Of a stretch of 64,000 nt of DNA, positions 218-53,709 are shown in pieces; the first letter of the stretch is position 1; each line of letters starts with the position of its first letter. Below the pieces are notes generated by a model. It saw only the letters and a list, made by a program, of their open reading frames with translations. It ran no database searches and was not told where the DNA came from. This DNA is from Pseudomonas sp. GM78 (GTDB taxonomy: Bacteria; Pseudomonadota; Gammaproteobacteria; Pseudomonadales; Pseudomonadaceae), in assembly GCF_000282475.1 (NCBI RefSeq), contig NZ_AKJF01000061.1, forward strand, positions 60,688-124,687. The letters run 5' to 3'. Position numbers and translations under genes: made by a program.

Positions 218-1330
218 ATGTCAACCAAACCCACCCTCGCCTTGGCACTGTGCTTCGCTATTACCGGTTGCGCACAGACTCCTAAAAGTGATGTAGACGG
301 CGGCAGCTGGTGGCCGTTCGGGTCTTCCGACAAAGTCGCGACCAAGACACCGGCTCCAGCCCCGACCCCAACCCCGGCACCGCTGAAACCGGTGGCCGCG
401 CCGGTTGCCAAGGCTGAAAGTTCCAGCCCTTGGTACTGGCCGTTCGGCTCCGAGGAAGCGCTCGATAAAAAACCGGAAGTAAAACCTGCGGCCAAGCCGG
501 TCGAAGTGGCCAAGGCCAAGGCTGAGGCCGATGCGGGTGGCAAGTGGTGGTGGCCGTTCGGTGGCAAAGAGCAGAGCACTGCCAAAGCCGTGCCGATGCC
601 GGATCCGAAAGTCACCCAGGCCTGGCTTGATGACTACGAGCCGCGCCTGCGTACAGCGATCAAGGACAGCAACCTGCAACTCGAGCGCCGTGAAAACGTA
701 TTGGTGGTCACCGCGCCGGTAGAAGGATCGTTCAACCCGGACCGTCCGGCCATGCTGCTGCCGGTGGTGCTCGGCCCGTTCACTCGCGTTGCGAAAATCC
801 TTGAAGCCGACCCGAAGACGGCCGTGCTGGTACTCGGCCACAGCGATACCTCGGGTGCCGCGCCCGCTAATGTGAAGCTGAGTCAGGAACGTGCGCAATC
901 GGTGGCTGCAATCTTCCGTCTCAGCGGTCTGCAGCGTGATCGCCTGATGCTGCGCGGCATGGGCGGCGAAGCCCCGCGTGCCGCCAACGACAGCGTTGAA
1001 GGTCGTGCCTTGAACCGTCGGGTGGAGCTGTTGGTCACGCCGCAAAACACCATGGTCGCGCTGCTGAGCAAGTACAATATGCCGGCTCCGGCGCCTGTGC
1101 GCATGGTCGCGGCCCAGGACATCAAACCGGTGGCCAAGCCTGTGACGCCAGCCCCTGCCGATGCAAAGAAAGCGGCTGCACCGGTCGCGAAAAAAGCGCC
1201 GGCCAAGAAAGCCGCCAAGGCTCCAGCCAAGAAGGCACCGGCTAAAACCGTGACACCTGCGAAAAAGACTGCACCGGCCAAAGCCGCTGCCGACGCGACG
1301 AAGGTCGCCGCCGATACCACAAAGAAGTGA
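218..1330 (+). CDS. OmpA-family lipoprotein with Trp-rich repeats and Lys/Ala/Pro tail
   Basis: The protein has 370 residues. The signal peptide ends in a lipobox (ITGC, lipidated Cys18), so it should be an outer-membrane lipoprotein. Residues 30-115 carry three copies of a W-W-P-F-G type motif (about 31-35, 72-77 and 110-115) joined by Pro/Ala linkers. Residues about 195-275 form an OmpA C-terminal peptidoglycan-binding domain, with GHSDTSG and the usual NRRVEL ending. The last ~70 residues are a Lys/Ala/Pro repeat tail resembling histone H1 or AlgP. The OmpA domain implies anchoring to the cell wall; the role of the Trp repeats is unknown. It lies 24 bp upstream of pdxH, probably in one operon. 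Confidence 0.85.
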   Translation: MSTKPTLALALCFAITGCAQTPKSDVDGGSWWPFGSSDKVATKTPAPAPTPTPAPLKPVAAPVAKAESSSPWYWPFGSEEALDKKPEVKPAAKPVEVAKAKAEADAGGKWWWPFGGKEQSTAKAVPMPDPKVTQAWLDDYEPRLRTAIKDSNLQLERRENVLVVTAPVEGSFNPDRPAMLLPVVLGPFTRVAKILEADPKTAVLVLGHSDTSGAAPANVKLSQERAQSVAAIFRLSGLQRDRLMLRGMGGEAPRAANDSVEGRALNRRVELLVTPQNTMVALLSKYNMPAPAPVRMVAAQDIKPVAKPVTPAPADAKKAAAPVAKKAPAKKAAKAPAKKAPAKTVTPAKKTAPAKAAADATKVAADTTKK

Positions 1331-1354
1331 TTCGTTAACCATAAGGAATGCGCC

Positions 1355-2002
1355 ATGACCAAGGCCCTGGCTGATATGCGCCGCGACTACACCCGTGATG
1401 GCCTGACCGAGGCGCAAGCGCCGGTCGAGCCGTTTGCGCTGTTCCACCAATGGTTTGCCGACGCGGTGAAAACCGAGCAGGCACCGGTGGAGGCCAATGC
1501 CATGACCTTGGCCACTGTCGACCAGGACGGACGGCCGCATTGCCGCATTCTGCTGCTCAAGGGCCTGGATGCGCAGGGCTTCACCTTCTTCACCAACTAC
1601 GACAGCGCCAAAGGCCAGCAGCTGGAGGCGAATCCATTCGCCGCCATGACGTTTTTCTGGCCGACGCTGGAGCGTCAGGTGCGGATTGAAGGTCGGGTGG
1701 TGAAGGTCACGCCCGAGGAGTCCGACGCGTACTATCAGGTGCGCCCGCTGGGCAGCCGCCTCGGTGCCTGGGCTTCGCCGCAGAGCCGGGTGATAGCCGA
1801 TCGCAACGAACTGGAGTCGCTGCTCAAGGATACCGAGCAGCGTTTCAGCGATACCCAGCCTCACTGCCCTGAACACTGGGGCGGTTATCGTCTGCTGCCA
1901 GAACGCATCGAGTTCTGGCAAGGTCGACCAAGCCGACTGCACGACCGCCTCAACTATCGCCTGCAGGGTGCCAGCTGGATTCTTGAACGTCTGGCGCCTT
2001 AA
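1355..2002 (+). CDS. pdxH: Pyridoxine/pyridoxamine 5'-phosphate oxidase
   Basis: The 215 residues are full length for the FMN-dependent PdxH family. The enzyme oxidises pyridoxine or pyridoxamine 5'-phosphate to PLP in the last step of vitamin B6 synthesis and salvage. Family features are present: the FMN-binding RILLLKG and [10 protein letters not shown] stretches, the QVRIEG strand, the [15 protein letters not shown] segment and the C-terminal RLHDR substrate-binding motif. AAGGA lies before the ATG. The neighbour order, OmpA lipoprotein then pdxH, is one I associate with Pseudomonas. Confidence 0.96.
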
Positions 2003-6196: not shown

Positions 6197-6292
6197 CCTG
6201 TGGGAGCCGGGCTTGCCCGCGATGGCGGATTCAAATTCAACACAAATGTTGACTGAACCACCGCTATCGCGGGCAAGCCCGGCTCCCACAGG
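6197..6292. repeat. REPIN (paired REP palindrome)
   Basis: Two inverted copies of a REP unit beginning CCTGTGGGAGCCGGGCTTG flank a short spacer. The element lies between convergent genes (PLP enzyme and FAD oxidoreductase) and can act as a terminator-like hairpin. Confidence 0.85.
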
Positions 6293-28036: not shown

Positions 28037-28102
28037 TATTCTCTCCTGCCCGATTGGTTACCTTGGCTCCATCGCAACAGGGCAACTGCAGGGAGACGCG
28101 TC

Positions 28103-28219
28103 ATGTTTTTCGACAACGTGGTGATCGCCGGAGTGCTGACCGTCAGCCTCATGTTGGTATTTTTTGCAGGGTTCGGATTTTTTATCTGGAAAGACTCGCA
28201 CAAGCGCAAAAAGCCGTAG
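28103..28219 (+). CDS. ccoM: CcoM-like small subunit of cbb3-type cytochrome c oxidase
   Basis: The protein has 38 residues. One membrane helix (about 8-28) contains Phe/Gly runs (FFAGFGFFIWKDSHK) and is followed by a short Lys/Arg tail. This agrees with what I recall of CcoM, the small subunit seen in the Pseudomonas stutzeri cbb3 oxidase structure (NVV-AGV-TV start, AGFG-FIWKD end). It is encoded away from the ccoNOQP genes. An Anr-type box upstream fits control by low oxygen. GGGAG before the ATG supports this start. A strong terminator follows. Confidence 0.78.
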   Translation: MFFDNVVIAGVLTVSLMLVFFAGFGFFIWKDSHKRKKP

Positions 28220-28254
28220 GTCTTTCTTGAGGCAATGAGCACGCAAGGCATTTT

Positions 28255-28282
28255 GGGCAACTTCGGTTGCCCTTTTTTTTTT
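28255..28282 (+). terminator. Terminator of ccoM
   Basis: GGGCAA and TTGCCC surround the loop CTTCGG (28255-28272), followed by ten Ts. A textbook rho-independent terminator. Confidence 0.92.
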
Positions 28283-49000: not shown

Positions 49001-50158
49001 TTACTCCCCTTGGCCGCTGGAAGCCTGCTCAGCGGGCTTGGCGGGGGCCGGGTTTTTTGCGCCGACGTTGGTGGCGTCAGTTGGCTTGACTTCGATGCCA
49101 GGCTTGACGAATTGCAGGCCTTCGGTGATCAGGCGATCGCCGGCCTTCAGGCCGTCCTCGATCAGCCATTGGTTGCCCACGGTACGGTTAGCCTTGAGCT
49201 GACGCAGTTCGACCTTGTTGTCGGGACCCACGACCAGCGCGGTCGGTGTGCCTTTGAGGTCGCGGGTGACACCTTGCTGCGGCGCCAGGATCGCGGCGCT
49301 GTTCACGCCTGCCTGCAACTGGGCATGCACGAACATGCCCGGCAGAAGGGTGTGATCAGGGTTCGGGAACACGGCGCGCAGGGTGACGGAGCCGGTGGTC
49401 TGGTCAACCGAGACCTCGGAGAACTCCAGCTTGCCGTCGAGTTTGTACTGGCTACCATCCTCGAGGGTCAGTTTGACTTTCGCGGCGTTGTCGCCGGCCT
49501 TTTGCAGGCGACCGCTTTCCAGTTCGCGGCGCAGCGCAAGCAGCTCGACCGAGGACTGGGTAACATCGACGTAGATCGGGTCCAGTTGCTGGATCACCGC
49601 CATCGCTTCGGTCTGGCCGTTGCTGACCAGCGCGCCTTCGGTGACCGACGAGCGACCGATCCGGCCGGTCAACGGCGCATACACCTTGGTGTAACGCACG
49701 TTGATCTGGGCTGTTTGCAGGGCGGCTTCCGATTGCAGGCGGTTGGCCACGGCGGTGTCGTATTCCTGGCGGCTTACGGCCTGTTCGTCGACCAGTTGCT
49801 TGTAGCGGTCGGAAACCGACTTGGTCGAACGCAGGTTGGCTTCGGCGCTTTTGAGCGTAGCGTCATAAACCGACGGATCGATCTGATACAGCTGCTGGCC
49901 GGCCTTGACGTCGCCGCCTTCCTTGAACAGACGCTTGAGAATGATGCCGTTGACCTGTGGGCGCACTTCAGCAATGCGGAACGCACTGGTGCGGCCCGGC
50001 AGTTCGGACGTCAACGTAAACGTTTGCGTCTGCAGGGTAACAACGCCGACCTGAGGCGGTGGAGCGGCCGGCGGGGCTTCTTCCTTTTTGCATCCGCTGA
50101 GCAGCGATGCGAGGGCGACGGCGGCGACCAGAGCGGTAACAGCTGGCTTGAATTGCAT
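49001..50158 (-). CDS. ttgA: RND efflux membrane-fusion protein TtgA
   Basis: The protein has 385 residues from the ATG at 50158. The frame opens further upstream, but this start gives a clean lipoprotein signal with lipobox LLSGC. It has lipoyl half-domains (GQQLYQIDPSVYDA, RYTKVYAPLTGRIGRSSVTEG in part) and an alpha-hairpin. It links TtgB to TtgC. It is first in the operon, 3 bp before ttgB. Confidence 0.93.
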   Translation of the reverse strand: MQFKPAVTALVAAVALASLLSGCKKEEAPPAAPPPQVGVVTLQTQTFTLTSELPGRTSAFRIAEVRPQVNGIILKRLFKEGGDVKAGQQLYQIDPSVYDATLKSAEANLRSTKSVSDRYKQLVDEQAVSRQEYDTAVANRLQSEAALQTAQINVRYTKVYAPLTGRIGRSSVTEGALVSNGQTEAMAVIQQLDPIYVDVTQSSVELLALRRELESGRLQKAGDNAAKVKLTLEDGSQYKLDGKLEFSEVSVDQTTGSVTLRAVFPNPDHTLLPGMFVHAQLQAGVNSAAILAPQQGVTRDLKGTPTALVVGPDNKVELRQLKANRTVGNQWLIEDGLKAGDRLITEGLQFVKPGIEVKPTDATNVGAKNPAPAKPAEQASSGQGE

Positions 50159-51059: not shown

Positions 51060-51217
51060 AACAAAATGCGTATTCGGCTTCCTGTGTGTCAACCGTTGAA
51101 GCTGTAGATGAACAGTTCTTCACGGGCGTTACGGCGCAAGGGTGCTTTTATATACACCTGTTCGGTCGGTTGACAGGTAACAGGCTCAGTATTTTGTAGG
51201 GATTTTGTGTCGAGTCC

Positions 51218-51332
51218 GTAGGAGCGAGGCTTGCCCGCGAAGGCGGCCTGACTGCCGACCTGATTTTGCAGATGTACTCTAATTCCTGTGGGAGCGAGCT
51301 TGCTCGCGAAGGCGGCCTGATAGCCGACCTGA
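51218..51332. repeat. Two REP units in direct orientation
   Basis: GTAGGAGCGAGGCTTGCCCG (51218-) and CCTGTGGGAGCGAGCTTGCT (51285-) both run into GCGAAGGCGGCCTGA, then a GCCGACCTGA tail. Unlike the other elements these are tandem, not inverted. Confidence 0.8.
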
Positions 51333-51686
51333 CTTTTGTTGACTGAATACATATCCGTTGCTGCGGTAACGGCGGCTGGCGGTTTCGCCCTTACGGCGAC
51401 TCACTTTTTTTACAAGCGCCTAAAAAAAGTAAGCAAAAAAACGCTCGCCCCAGCGTCCGGCCCCTCGCTAAGGCTCGGCGTTCCTTCGCTCCGGTTTCCA
51501 TCCGGGGGCATCGCCCTCCGGTTGGCTTCGCTGGCACCTACATGCGATGTGTTCGACTGCGTCGAACGGCGCTGCGCGCCAATCCCCGGATGGACACCTC
51601 CACTCAGCCTCCCGAAGGGGCGGGTGGATCAAAATCAAAAACAGCCGAGGCGAGCTGACACTCGACCTCATTGTTGGCGCAGTCCC
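51333..51686. repeat. Interspersed Pseudomonas repeat with spurious frames
   Basis: The block runs through a GCGGCTGGCGGTTTCGCC start, an A-rich middle and a GC-rich end. I recognise its pattern from multiple places in fluorescent Pseudomonas genomes. Frames on both strands are open but give low-complexity Pro/Arg/Ser peptides. It contains no transposase. It is probably non-coding repeat sequence. Confidence 0.5.
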
Positions 51687-51781
51687 CCTGTAGGAGCTGC
51701 CGAAGGCTGCGATCTTTTGATTTTGATTTGGGTATGCCACCGTTGCTGAAGATCAAAAGATCGCAGCCTTCGGCTGCTCCA
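51687..51781. repeat. REPIN, AAGGCTGCGATC variant
   Basis: CCTGTAGGAGCTGCCGAAGG with GATCTTTTGATTTTGAT, and the inverted copy ending CGGCTGCTCCA. Same family as 24132-24221. Confidence 0.82.
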
Positions 51782-51846
51782 ACAAGGCTAAAAAGCGATA
51801 TCCAATTCTGAAAAGCCGCAATACGACACTTTATTATTTGCATGAG

Positions 51847-52161
51847 TTATCGCTGTTGCGTTGCCTGCCTACTCTTGCGATCAACCCCTCGCTCCAACAC
51901 CTTCGCCACATCATCGATCACCGCTTTGCTCATCGCAGTCAGGTAATGCGCGGCCCAGGCGTGGCGGTCGGAGTCTTGGGTGTAAGCGGCATCCACGGTC
52001 AGGGACTTGGCGAGGAACAGCAGGTCGGAGGCTTGAGCCAGAGCGTCAGCGATGGGAACGTCTCGACAGACGTGGAACAGAGGCTGATTCGAGAGATACA
52101 GGAAGGGTGTGAGTCCGACGGTCTTCAGTTCTGAAGGTGAGCGCGGGTTTGTTTTGCTCAT
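51847..52161 (-). CDS. DUF3077 family protein
   Basis: The protein has 104 residues. The core FHVCRDVPIADALAQASDLL (about 29-48) followed by two helices fits DUF3077, small Pseudomonas proteins of unknown function. It has no signal or membrane helix. AAGGAG at 52174-52169, 7 nt before the ATG, is an excellent ribosome site. The 77-nt RNA upstream carries a 10-nt stretch complementary to exactly that site, so translation is probably repressed by antisense pairing. Confidence 0.8.
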   Translation of the reverse strand: MSKTNPRSPSELKTVGLTPFLYLSNQPLFHVCRDVPIADALAQASDLLFLAKSLTVDAAYTQDSDRHAWAAHYLTAMSKAVIDDVAKVLERGVDRKSRQATQQR

Positions 52162-52167
52162 GGTGCA

Positions 52168-52179
52168 ACTCCTTAATCC
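52168..52179 (-). promoter_or_regulatory. Ribosome-binding site and proposed antisense target b2
   Basis: Minus-strand GGAUUAAGGAGU contains the Shine-Dalgarno. GGAUUAAGGA pairs with UCCUUGAUCC in the leader RNA (52252-52243): 10 of 10 positions with one G-U wobble. Confidence 0.65.
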
Positions 52180-52213
52180 AAGAAGCCGCCACGTTCGTTT
52201 CCAAGCGAATGGG

Positions 52214-52290
52214 TGGCAGCTGTACGCGGGTTGGAAAACCGGGGATCAAGGAAACCGGCACGCCCGAAAGCGTCCCACGCACAGCTGCCA
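52214..52290 (-). ncRNA. C4-like antisense RNA (three-way junction)
   Basis: Read on the minus strand, a 17-bp closing stem (52290-52274 with 52230-52214) encloses two hairpins. One is ACGCU-UUCG-GGCGU. The other has a CCGG stem and a loop holding UUUCCUUGAUCC. Two closing-stem pairs are G-U on this strand but would be A-C mismatches on the other, so the minus strand is the sense. Size (77 nt), shape, and the loop's complementarity to the downstream ribosome site resemble the C4 antisense RNA of phages P1 and P7. A 10-nt sequence GCTTGGAAAC lies both upstream (52372-52363) and downstream (52206-52197), like the paired targets a1 and a2 of P1. Confidence 0.68.
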
Positions 52291-52603
52291 TAACACTTAT
52301 TTCGCAGTCGTAAAAAACGTCTGGAGTCGTGTTAGAGGTGCTGTTGCGCTGTGATCCGACGGGTTTCCAAGCCCGATCGCTGAATGGTCAGCGATGTCCG
52401 AAGACTATCCTTTCGAATAAAAGCGCAACAAGGCGGCAAAGTGCCAAAACGCAAGATTCGGAGTTTGCCTACAAGGTCCTGAGGCGTCATCCGATATTTC
52501 GATACCCTAAGTAAACGCAACTAAACATCCGGCATAAACAATCCGCATGAAAACCAAACTTCGGCGAAGTAATTCGAATTGATTTGATGCGTGGCAACCA
52601 CTA
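52291..52603. other. Upstream region of the C4-like RNA, no gene seen
   Basis: It holds the upstream copy GCTTGGAAAC (52372-52363, minus strand) and GGATCA (52357-52352), which match the antisense loop. It probably also contains the promoter of the RNA. A 62-codon open frame (52332-52520, minus) has no ribosome site or coding character. Confidence 0.5.
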
Positions 52604-52640
52604 CAAAAAAAGCCCCGACTCATAAGAGTCCGGGGCTTTT
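52604..52640. terminator. Terminator after the Old Yellow Enzyme gene
   Basis: AAAAAAAGCCCC-GACTC and GAGTC-CGGGGCTTTT pair around ATAA, with one bulged C. Read on the minus strand it ends the operon starting at 55234. Confidence 0.88.
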
Positions 52641-52659
52641 GCGTTTCAGCGGGTGCCGA

Positions 52660-53709
52660 TTACAACGTCGGGTAGTCGATGTAGCCAACCGGCCCTTTGG
52701 CATAGAACAGCTCTGGACGCGCCTCGTTAAGCGGCACATCGGCCTTCAACCGTGCCGGCAAATCCGGGTTGGCAATGAACGGCACGCCGAAAGCGACGGC
52801 ATCAGCCTTGCCTGCGGCCAGCCAGGCGTTGGCGCTGTCCCTGGTGAAGCGTTCGTTGATGATGTACGGGCCACCGAAGGCTTCCTTGATCTGCGGGCCG
52901 AGGCTGTCGTCGGCTTCTTTTTCGCGCGAGCAGATGAAGGCGATGCCGCGTTTGCCCAGTTCGCGCGCGACATAAGTGAAGGTTTCGGCGAGGTTGTCGT
53001 CACCCATGTCATGGGAGTCGGCGCGCGGTGCCAGGTGCACACCGACGCGGCCGGCGCCCCAGACTTCGATGGCTGCGTCGGTCACTTCCAGCAACAGGCG
53101 GGCACGGTTTTCCAGGGAGCCGCCGTATTGGTCGGTGCGCTGGTTGGTGCTGCTTTGCAGGAACTGGTCGAGCAGGTAGCCGTTGGCGCCGTGGATTTCC
53201 ACGCCATCGAAACCGGCGGCCTTGGCGTTTTCGGCACCGACGCGGTAGGCGTCGATGATGTCGGCGATTTCAGCGGTTTCCAGCGCGCGGGGCGTCGGGT
53301 AATCGGCCAGCGGACGCACCAGGCTGACGTGGCCTTTAGGCTGGATGGCGCTCGGGGCGACCGGTTTTTCGCCGTTCAGGTACGACTCGTGGGACACCCG
53401 GCCGACGTGCCACAGTTGCAGGAAGATCTTGCCGCCCGCGCCGTGGATCGCCTTGGTGACGTTGGTCCAGCCGCGCACCTGGTCGTTGGACCAGATGCCC
53501 GGGGTGTCCGGGTAGCCGACGCCCATCGGGGTGACCGAAGTGGCTTCGCTGAGGATCAGGCCGGCCGAAGCGCGTTGTACGTAGTACTCGGCCATCAGCG
53601 CGTTGGGTACGCGGCCTTCGTCGGCGCGGCAGCGGGTCAGCGGGGCCATGATGATGCGGTTGGCCAGTTCGAGGTCGCCCAGTTTGATCGGATCGAAAAT
53701 AGTCGTCAT
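52660..53709 (-). CDS. Old Yellow Enzyme family alkene/nitro reductase (NemA/Xen-like)
   Basis: The protein has 349 residues in a FMN TIM-barrel. It shows FDPIKLGDLELANRIIMAPL (in part), the catalytic pair in GVEIHGANGYLLDQFL (His/Asn) and the FMN phosphate site AFGVPFIANPDL. It reduces electrophilic alkenes, quinones or nitro compounds with NAD(P)H. It is third in an arsR-MFS-reductase operon, suggesting defence against reactive electrophiles. Confidence 0.9.
   Translation of the reverse strand: MTTIFDPIKLGDLELANRIIMAPLTRCRADEGRVPNALMAEYYVQRASAGLILSEATSVTPMGVGYPDTPGIWSNDQVRGWTNVTKAIHGAGGKIFLQLWHVGRVSHESYLNGEKPVAPSAIQPKGHVSLVRPLADYPTPRALETAEIADIIDAYRVGAENAKAAGFDGVEIHGANGYLLDQFLQSSTNQRTDQYGGSLENRARLLLEVTDAAIEVWGAGRVGVHLAPRADSHDMGDDNLAETFTYVARELGKRGIAFICSREKEADDSLGPQIKEAFGGPYIINERFTRDSANAWLAAGKADAVAFGVPFIANPDLPARLKADVPLNEARPELFYAKGPVGYIDYPTL

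Follow-up and report, generated by a model that had tools for sequence, protein, structure and literature searches.

A C4-type antisense RNA as probable translational lock of a DUF3077 gene, and its multiplication in the genome of Pseudomonas sp. GM78

C4 is an immunity RNA of phages, and its presence in front of a DUF3077 gene of Pseudomonas sp. GM78 raises the question of what such an RNA controls there, and whether it stands alone. An earlier note on the window (the whole 64,000-nt stretch of DNA analysed here) had read the leader of this gene as one antisense switch, driving a Pseudomonas accessory gene outside a prophage.

C4 leader of the DUF3077 gene and its genomic site

The Rfam scan of the whole 64-kb window returned four matches above cut-off, two of them at the DUF3077 cassette (Table 1). 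The C4 model (RF01695), which the earlier note had suggested as a probe, scored 89.4 bits (cut-off 45; E 2e-16) without a broken pair in the alignment. Upstream of it, the c4-a1b1 model (RF03163) scored 47.8 bits, which is marginal (1.1 bits above the cut-off of 46.7), and a match of isrK over the a1-b1 region was weak (31 bits, below the cut-off of 50). The gene behind this leader was assigned to DUF3077 (PF11275) with 100.4 bits (Pfam cut-off 21). Folding recovered the 77-nt three-way junction with a 17-bp closing stem that had been described before; of its two inner hairpins, the second carries b′ in its loop, and a′ lies in the junction. By the P1 rule, the mature RNA would comprise about 77 nt (~52213-52289) with GG at its 5′ end, and GG is present at the expected position. 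The b′ loop (TTTCCTTGATCC) is complementary to the Shine-Dalgarno region of the gene (GGATTAAGGA; b2) across 10 positions, one of them a G-U pair, and a′ is complementary to the same heptamer in a1 and in a2, i.e., on both sides of C4. These pairings, as well as the motif GGATCA beside the upstream copy (b1), had been noticed from the letters alone and hold at the positions listed in Table 1. The interval originally given, 51847-52372, contains the gene and C4 but needs to be extended to ~52431 so that it includes the predicted promoter together with the a1-b1 hairpins.

Table 1. Features of the DUF3077 cassette and its surroundings (positions within the window)
Feature	Position	Strand	Remarks
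Predicted sigma70-like promoter of the leader	52403..52431	(-)	TTGTTG - 17 nt - ATAGTC; prediction, read from sequence
c4-a1b1 element	52356..52408	(-)	Rfam RF03163; hairpin, a1 within 8-nt hairpin loop, b1
a1 hairpin	52360..52375	(-)	CGGGCTTGGAAACCCG; core TTGGAAA at 52364-52370, complementary to a′ of C4
b1	52352..52357	(-)	GGATCA; read from sequence
C4 antisense RNA	52209..52295	(-)	Rfam RF01695, model span
b′ loop of C4	52243..52254	(-)	TTTCCTTGATCC; fold and pairing
a′ junction segment of C4	52231..52237	(-)	TTTCCAA; fold and pairing
a2 target	52198..52204	(-)	TTGGAAA, tip of small hairpin; pairing
Segment complementary to 3′ strand of C4 closing stem	52185..52192	(-)	GTGGCGGC; pairing shuffles
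b2 target	52170..52179	(-)	GGATTAAGGA, Shine-Dalgarno region of the DUF3077 gene; pairing
DUF3077 gene	51847..52161	(-)	104 aa; ATG 47 nt past C4 model end
Stretch absent in relatives between TetR and Oxidored_FMN genes	51214..52605		~1.4 kb, edges approximate; cassette and intergenic repeats

The system that this leader most resembles is C4 of P1/P7 immI (c4-icd-ant; RF01695/RF03163), which has the same fold, the same a′/b′ segments, and b2 lying over the Shine-Dalgarno sequence. In the P1 record the elements follow each other as a1, b1, c4, a2, b2, icd, ant1, and the order in the window, a1-b1-C4-a2-b2-gene, is alike, with the a1-b1 hairpins coming directly after the predicted promoter, as in P1. 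The distance from C4 to the ATG is 47 nt both in P1 c4-icd and in the window, and a model built from nothing but the 22 copies of the GM78 genome (see below) detected P1 c4 with 46.2 bits (E 5e-9). Rfam score, order and geometry thus confirm the P1/P7 layout that had been proposed; of the sequence features of RF01695, the score, the three-way junction and the downstream a2-b2 over the Shine-Dalgarno sequence are all present, and the upstream a1-b1 marginally so. In contrast to P1 immI, the target in the window is DUF3077 and not icd/ant, phage genes are missing alongside, and the cassette is absent from this site in relatives. Control of icd and an antirepressor within a phage or prophage, as in P1-type immI, was not found at the window locus.

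The four neighbouring genes searched with Pfam encode an efflux membrane-fusion protein, a TetR regulator, an Oxidored_FMN enzyme, and an MFS transporter; thus, no phage gene adjoins the cassette, as the earlier note had stated. In one relative (L216), the sequences at 51060-51213 and 52606-52700, on either side of the ~1.4-kb stretch that relatives lack, both align, ~0.13 kb apart. The Oxidored_FMN gene was found in all 59 genomes of the genus searched, and the TetR gene lay near it in 25 of the 29 relatives' loci fetched. Neither DUF3077 nor C4 was detected beside Oxidored_FMN in any of these 29 loci (L225 being cut by a contig end), which leaves the window locus as the sole positive among 30, and the closest homologues of the window DUF3077 protein are located at other genomic sites. 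Positions 51214-51846, inside the stretch that relatives lack, consist of intergenic repeats and palindromes adjoining the cassette.

Elsewhere in the window, the sRNA PhrS was matched over its full length (28063-28281, plus strand; 187.7 bits), and the Burkholderia RNA Bcj14 was matched on the minus strand at 49878-50050 (63.4 bits; cut-off 59), inside the efflux membrane-fusion gene, where it is maybe an artefact of the coding sequence. Another C4-like match (6200-6289, minus strand; 30 bits) has the sequence of an intergenic palindrome and was left out of the pairing matrices described below.

C4 copies and their pairing preference

The C4 element in the window is genuine, yet what had been taken for a single case turned out to be one of 22: the GM78 genome contains 22 C4 RNAs, all above the RF01695 cut-off, and none was matched in 14 control genomes. 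RF03163 matched 21 sites (11 of them above cut-off); each precedes a separate C4 by 44-66 nt, so that the C4 on contig C9 is the sole copy without an a1b1 site. The ATG lies 46-57 nt past the end of the C4 model in all copies. The stem covaries among them, in line with the check proposed at the outset: 94.3% of the cells in the alignment are paired and two-sided changes occur in 18 of 27 pairs, values neither of which was reached in 500 shuffles. Behind these 22 C4s lie 13 DUF6124 genes, three DUF3077 genes, one Bro-N antirepressor-like gene, and four genes for unassigned small proteins; the remaining cassette, C69b, has a leader ORF and, behind it, genes judged phage-like by eye. In one DUF3077 cassette, the gene stands directly behind C4, and in the other two it follows a short leader ORF. 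Such a leader ORF ahead of the next gene is kept in cassettes C69a, C69b, and C101, which is reminiscent of P1, where icd precedes ant1. A strongly conserved block, GCCTAC...TACGCCAGAATCCGCCGGCTTGTGCGCC, was seen ~130-200 nt upstream of C4 in eight loci (L009, L013, L014, L015, L017, L018, L021, and L023); it lies where many DUF6124 cassettes would have their promoter and is possibly the site of a shared regulator.

Whether each C4 favours its own target was assessed with duplex energies (a′-a2 plus b′-b2) for all pairs of elements, the target being the 24 nt before the start codon. This was done for the GM78 genome (22 × 22) and for G049, the richest of the genus genomes sampled (51 × 51; 51 of its 55 C4s, the four weak ones, L141-L144, being omitted here and in the upstream-region tests, and kept in the run with wider windows). 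Cognate pairs averaged -24.3 kcal/mol in GM78 and -22.4 kcal/mol in G049, compared with -13.7 and -12.6 kcal/mol off the diagonal, and in neither genome did any of 20000 shuffles reach the cognate value. Own targets were ranked first by 18/22 and 38/51 C4s, respectively, and own C4s by 18/22 and 35/51 targets. A first run on GM78 with hand-set windows gave own-first ranks of 18/22 and 21/22; with wider target windows, the numbers were 13/22 and 31/55 for C4s and 13/22 and 23/55 for targets. Cognate pairing is thus strongly preferred, without being fully private. The 51 C4s of G049 contain only 35 distinct a′ strings, and in the three DUF3077 cassettes of GM78, a′ and target have changed in a matched manner (TTTCCAA/TTGGAAA, TTTCCAC/GTGGAAA, and TTCTCAG/CTGAGAA). 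A preference for the own upstream region was evident for a′ (a1 side; 0/20000 shuffles as good in both genomes) and, more weakly, for b′ (b1 side; 50/20000 in GM78 and 0/20000 in G049). Twenty-two copies of the same layout, 14 controls without any, and own-target pairing above all 20000 shuffles argue that the element is more than a product of chance. In having 22 C4s in one genome, most of which favour their own target, GM78 differs from P1/P7.

A further complementarity connects the 3′ strand of the C4 closing stem with the segment between a2 and b2. Own pairs of strand and segment were matched by 3/20000 and 10/20000 shuffles in the two genomes, whereas the two controls per genome were matched by 1124-15316/20000. 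When the 5′ strand of C4 was left out, P1 and the window alike folded into a hairpin carrying a2 at its tip (-18.5 and -20.5 kcal/mol, respectively), as did 17 other cassettes (-10.7 to -23.9 kcal/mol; the first nine of each genome were folded, 18 in all). In the minimum-energy fold of the full leader, C4 won over this competing hairpin in all five sequences folded. The hairpin may be relevant during transcription or after processing, and may already have been reported in P1/P7 papers from the 1990s.

A bacterial genome rich in C4-like RNAs has a precedent in Acinetobacter baumannii, for which 21 C4-like sRNAs of Group 1 with variable a′ and RNA-seq signs of processing were reported (PMC5320573). 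No cis targets are assigned to them in the available part of that report (PMC5320573), whereas each C4 here has a2-b2 and a payload gene; GM78 is also set apart from A. baumannii in that most of its payloads form one homologous protein family. In Salmonella prophage Gifsy-1, the isrK-orf45-anrP system has a small ORF that is translated ahead of the controlled gene (PMC12197685), as may be compared with the leader ORF of some sister cassettes. Its target is, however, a prophage gene (PMC12197685), and the cassette in the window lacks a leader ORF and matches isrK, as mentioned, below cut-off.

Payload genes, phage contigs, and distribution

C4 is linked with two protein families. In GM78, it precedes 13 of 16 DUF6124 and 3 of 5 DUF3077 matches; those without it are three DUF6124 and two DUF3077 matches, one of these a fragment. 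In G049, 35/41 DUF6124 and 5/5 DUF3077 matches lie at most 300 nt downstream of a C4, and six DUF6124 matches do not; conversely, 15 of the 55 C4s of this genome have neither family behind them. All 30 DUF3077 loci fetched (59 genomes were searched, 41 of them gave a match, and the best locus was taken from 30) contained C4 according to model R1, one of them weakly (L115; 48.8 bits). In viral contigs, C4 was found within ~0.65 kb upstream in 59 of 61 DUF3077/DUF6124 loci, and the other two (L165 and L203) start at the gene, without upstream DNA. DUF6124 genes for which model R1 found no C4 comprise G000 C56:85093 and C198:7378 as well as L145-L149, and two of all these genes are the top DUF6124 scores of their genomes; genes of this kind are perhaps regulated otherwise.

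DUF3077 and DUF6124 are homologous to each other (profile comparison; 97.8%, E 1e-12). The small "VDTHAPLDIL" payload family (C17, C74, and C108) was considered as further kin and rejected (hhalign probability 0.4-0.6%). Across payload genes, dN/dS was 0.05-0.19 in 16 of 17 comparisons, dS being saturated in the remaining one; for the window DUF3077 gene and its homologues, it was 0.12-0.19 in the six computable comparisons, and dS was saturated in the seventh. These values indicate purifying selection on the payload proteins. The AlphaFold2 model of DUF3077 (mean pLDDT 88) consists of a beta hairpin and a helical hairpin; none of its structural matches was informative on function, and PADLOC gave no match for the five payloads submitted. 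Among the papers listed, DUF3077 appears in one, which connects it with a mutation for furfural tolerance in P. putida (PMC9630843). No paper on DUF6124, and none tying C4 to DUF3077 or DUF6124, was found in the open-access PMC literature.

That the cassette lies outside a prophage is correct for the window locus and does not extend to its sisters: in viral contigs, C4-DUF6124 cassettes occur near genes for a tail protein and a tape measure (L166 and L197) and for a major head protein (L181). Besides the Bro-N antirepressor-like gene behind one C4 of GM78, locus L123 of G049 (940-1452, minus strand) encodes an antirepressor-like body with a DUF6124-type N-terminus (MIKVTPNPPE). It apparently stands midway between the phage antirepressor and the DUF6124 cassettes, which suggests that payloads have been exchanged behind a common leader. 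In four viral DUF6124 loci (L193, L196, L200, and L207), a second, weak C4-like match (46-51 bits) lies ~520 nt upstream of C4, suggesting a tandem or decayed copy. DUF6124 was matched by one phage record.

Within the genus, any C4 match was obtained for 54 of 59 sampled genomes (GM78 included) and one above cut-off for 53. Matches per genome ranged from 0 to 54 (median 17), with at least 10 in 37 genomes; a closer search of the richest, G049, yielded 55, of which 52 were above cut-off. Among 93 genomes from other genera of the order, 12 contained C4, with at most six matches each.

Proposed mechanism and competing explanations

The reading we favour, at a probability of roughly 0.85, is that the DUF3077 leader is a C4 translational lock of the P1/P7 immI type, and that switch and payload have been multiplied as a cassette throughout the genome, mostly with keys of their own. 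We infer how such a cassette would be expressed, processed, repressed, and released. One transcript would start just before the a1-b1 hairpins and run through C4 into the DUF3077 gene. C4 would fold into its three-way junction and, by analogy with P1, have its 5′ end cut by RNase P. Pairing of a′ with a2 and of b′ with b2, which is the Shine-Dalgarno sequence, would then turn translation off, the gene in effect yielding its own repressor RNA, whereas the upstream a1/b1 copy might titrate C4 or pre-pair with it. With separate a′/b′ keys, many small genes of the DUF3077/DUF6124 type could be silenced largely independently. The antisense switch on an accessory gene that had been postulated is, thus, borne out as far as a C4 before DUF3077 goes, and repression itself is what the pairing would predict.

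Chromosomal C4s might instead act in trans, silencing genes that carry C4 targets in incoming phages or prophages, with the downstream gene as a mere carrier or decoy. This idea was raised earlier for the C4 RNAs of Acinetobacter (PMC5320573, in the part available), private keys would fit an arms race, and C4-payload cassettes are indeed present inside viral contigs. Of 46 distinct viral elements, 18 were bound by a C4 of GM78, and 24 by one of G049, within 1 kcal/mol of the energy with their own C4. However, for the targets of another chromosome the same measure gave 22 of 51 with the C4s of GM78, so that viral targets are not enriched and phage specificity had to be dropped. The payload is under purifying selection and the cis target is kept, neither of which a decoy would need, and we regard trans immunity as improbable. 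Still less credible is that the element is a decayed and now functionless remnant of prophage immunity, even though C4 belongs to phage immunity, one copy precedes a Bro-N antirepressor-like gene, and the MIKVTPNPPE N-terminus sits on an antirepressor-like body in G049. Stem covariation, cognate pairing in two genomes, the 46-57 nt spacing, dN/dS of 0.05-0.19, and multiplication throughout the genus all disfavour decay.

More serious, if still doubtful, is the proposal that the cassettes are toxin modules, in which the small protein inhibits growth and C4 is a cotranscribed, type I-like antitoxin. Type I toxin-antitoxin families are multi-copy small genes silenced by their own antisense RNAs with preferred pairing, and the many paralogous cassettes per genome with preferred antisense pairs fit this description. 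However, C4 is encoded upstream, on the strand and in the transcript of the gene that it would silence, unlike the antisense RNA of classic type I pairs; the DUF3077 model has no informative structural match, and PADLOC gave none for five payloads. On the other hand, the short leader ORF ahead of the next gene in C69a, C69b, and C101 parallels P1 icd-ant, and P1 Icd, the product of a C4-controlled gene, inhibits cell division by targeting FtsZ (PMC11897509). By weak analogy with Icd, the payload might be a conditionally released small protein, possibly growth-inhibiting or phage-responsive; that it is an effector in phage conflict or growth control is possible, with the odds somewhat against it. 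The translational lock itself, which we prefer, can be extended only tentatively to a genus-wide, horizontally moving arsenal of RNA-locked cassettes, numbering tens per genome in many species, each silenced by its own C4 key and shared with prophages as additional genes, in which the antirepressor body was swapped for DUF6124/DUF3077 behind an unchanged leader and release serves phage conflict or growth arrest; we hold this extension to be conceivable, at less than even odds.

Three points are new as far as our searches of the open-access literature show: C4 is tied to DUF3077/DUF6124, its lock-and-key pairs coexist in a single genome, and it occurs on the scale of a whole genus. P1 and P7 represent two C4 specificities; with 22 in one genome and more than 50 in another, the specificity code becomes directly testable, and mutually preferring C4-target pairs could serve as nearly independent translational switches. 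DUF3077 and DUF6124, families without known function, thereby gain a mechanistic handle. The findings suggest the takeover of a device from phage immunity, which was then copied many times and given other genes to control. Should the arsenal reading prove true, C4 would be a general device by which cells control many genes in parallel, beyond phage immunity.
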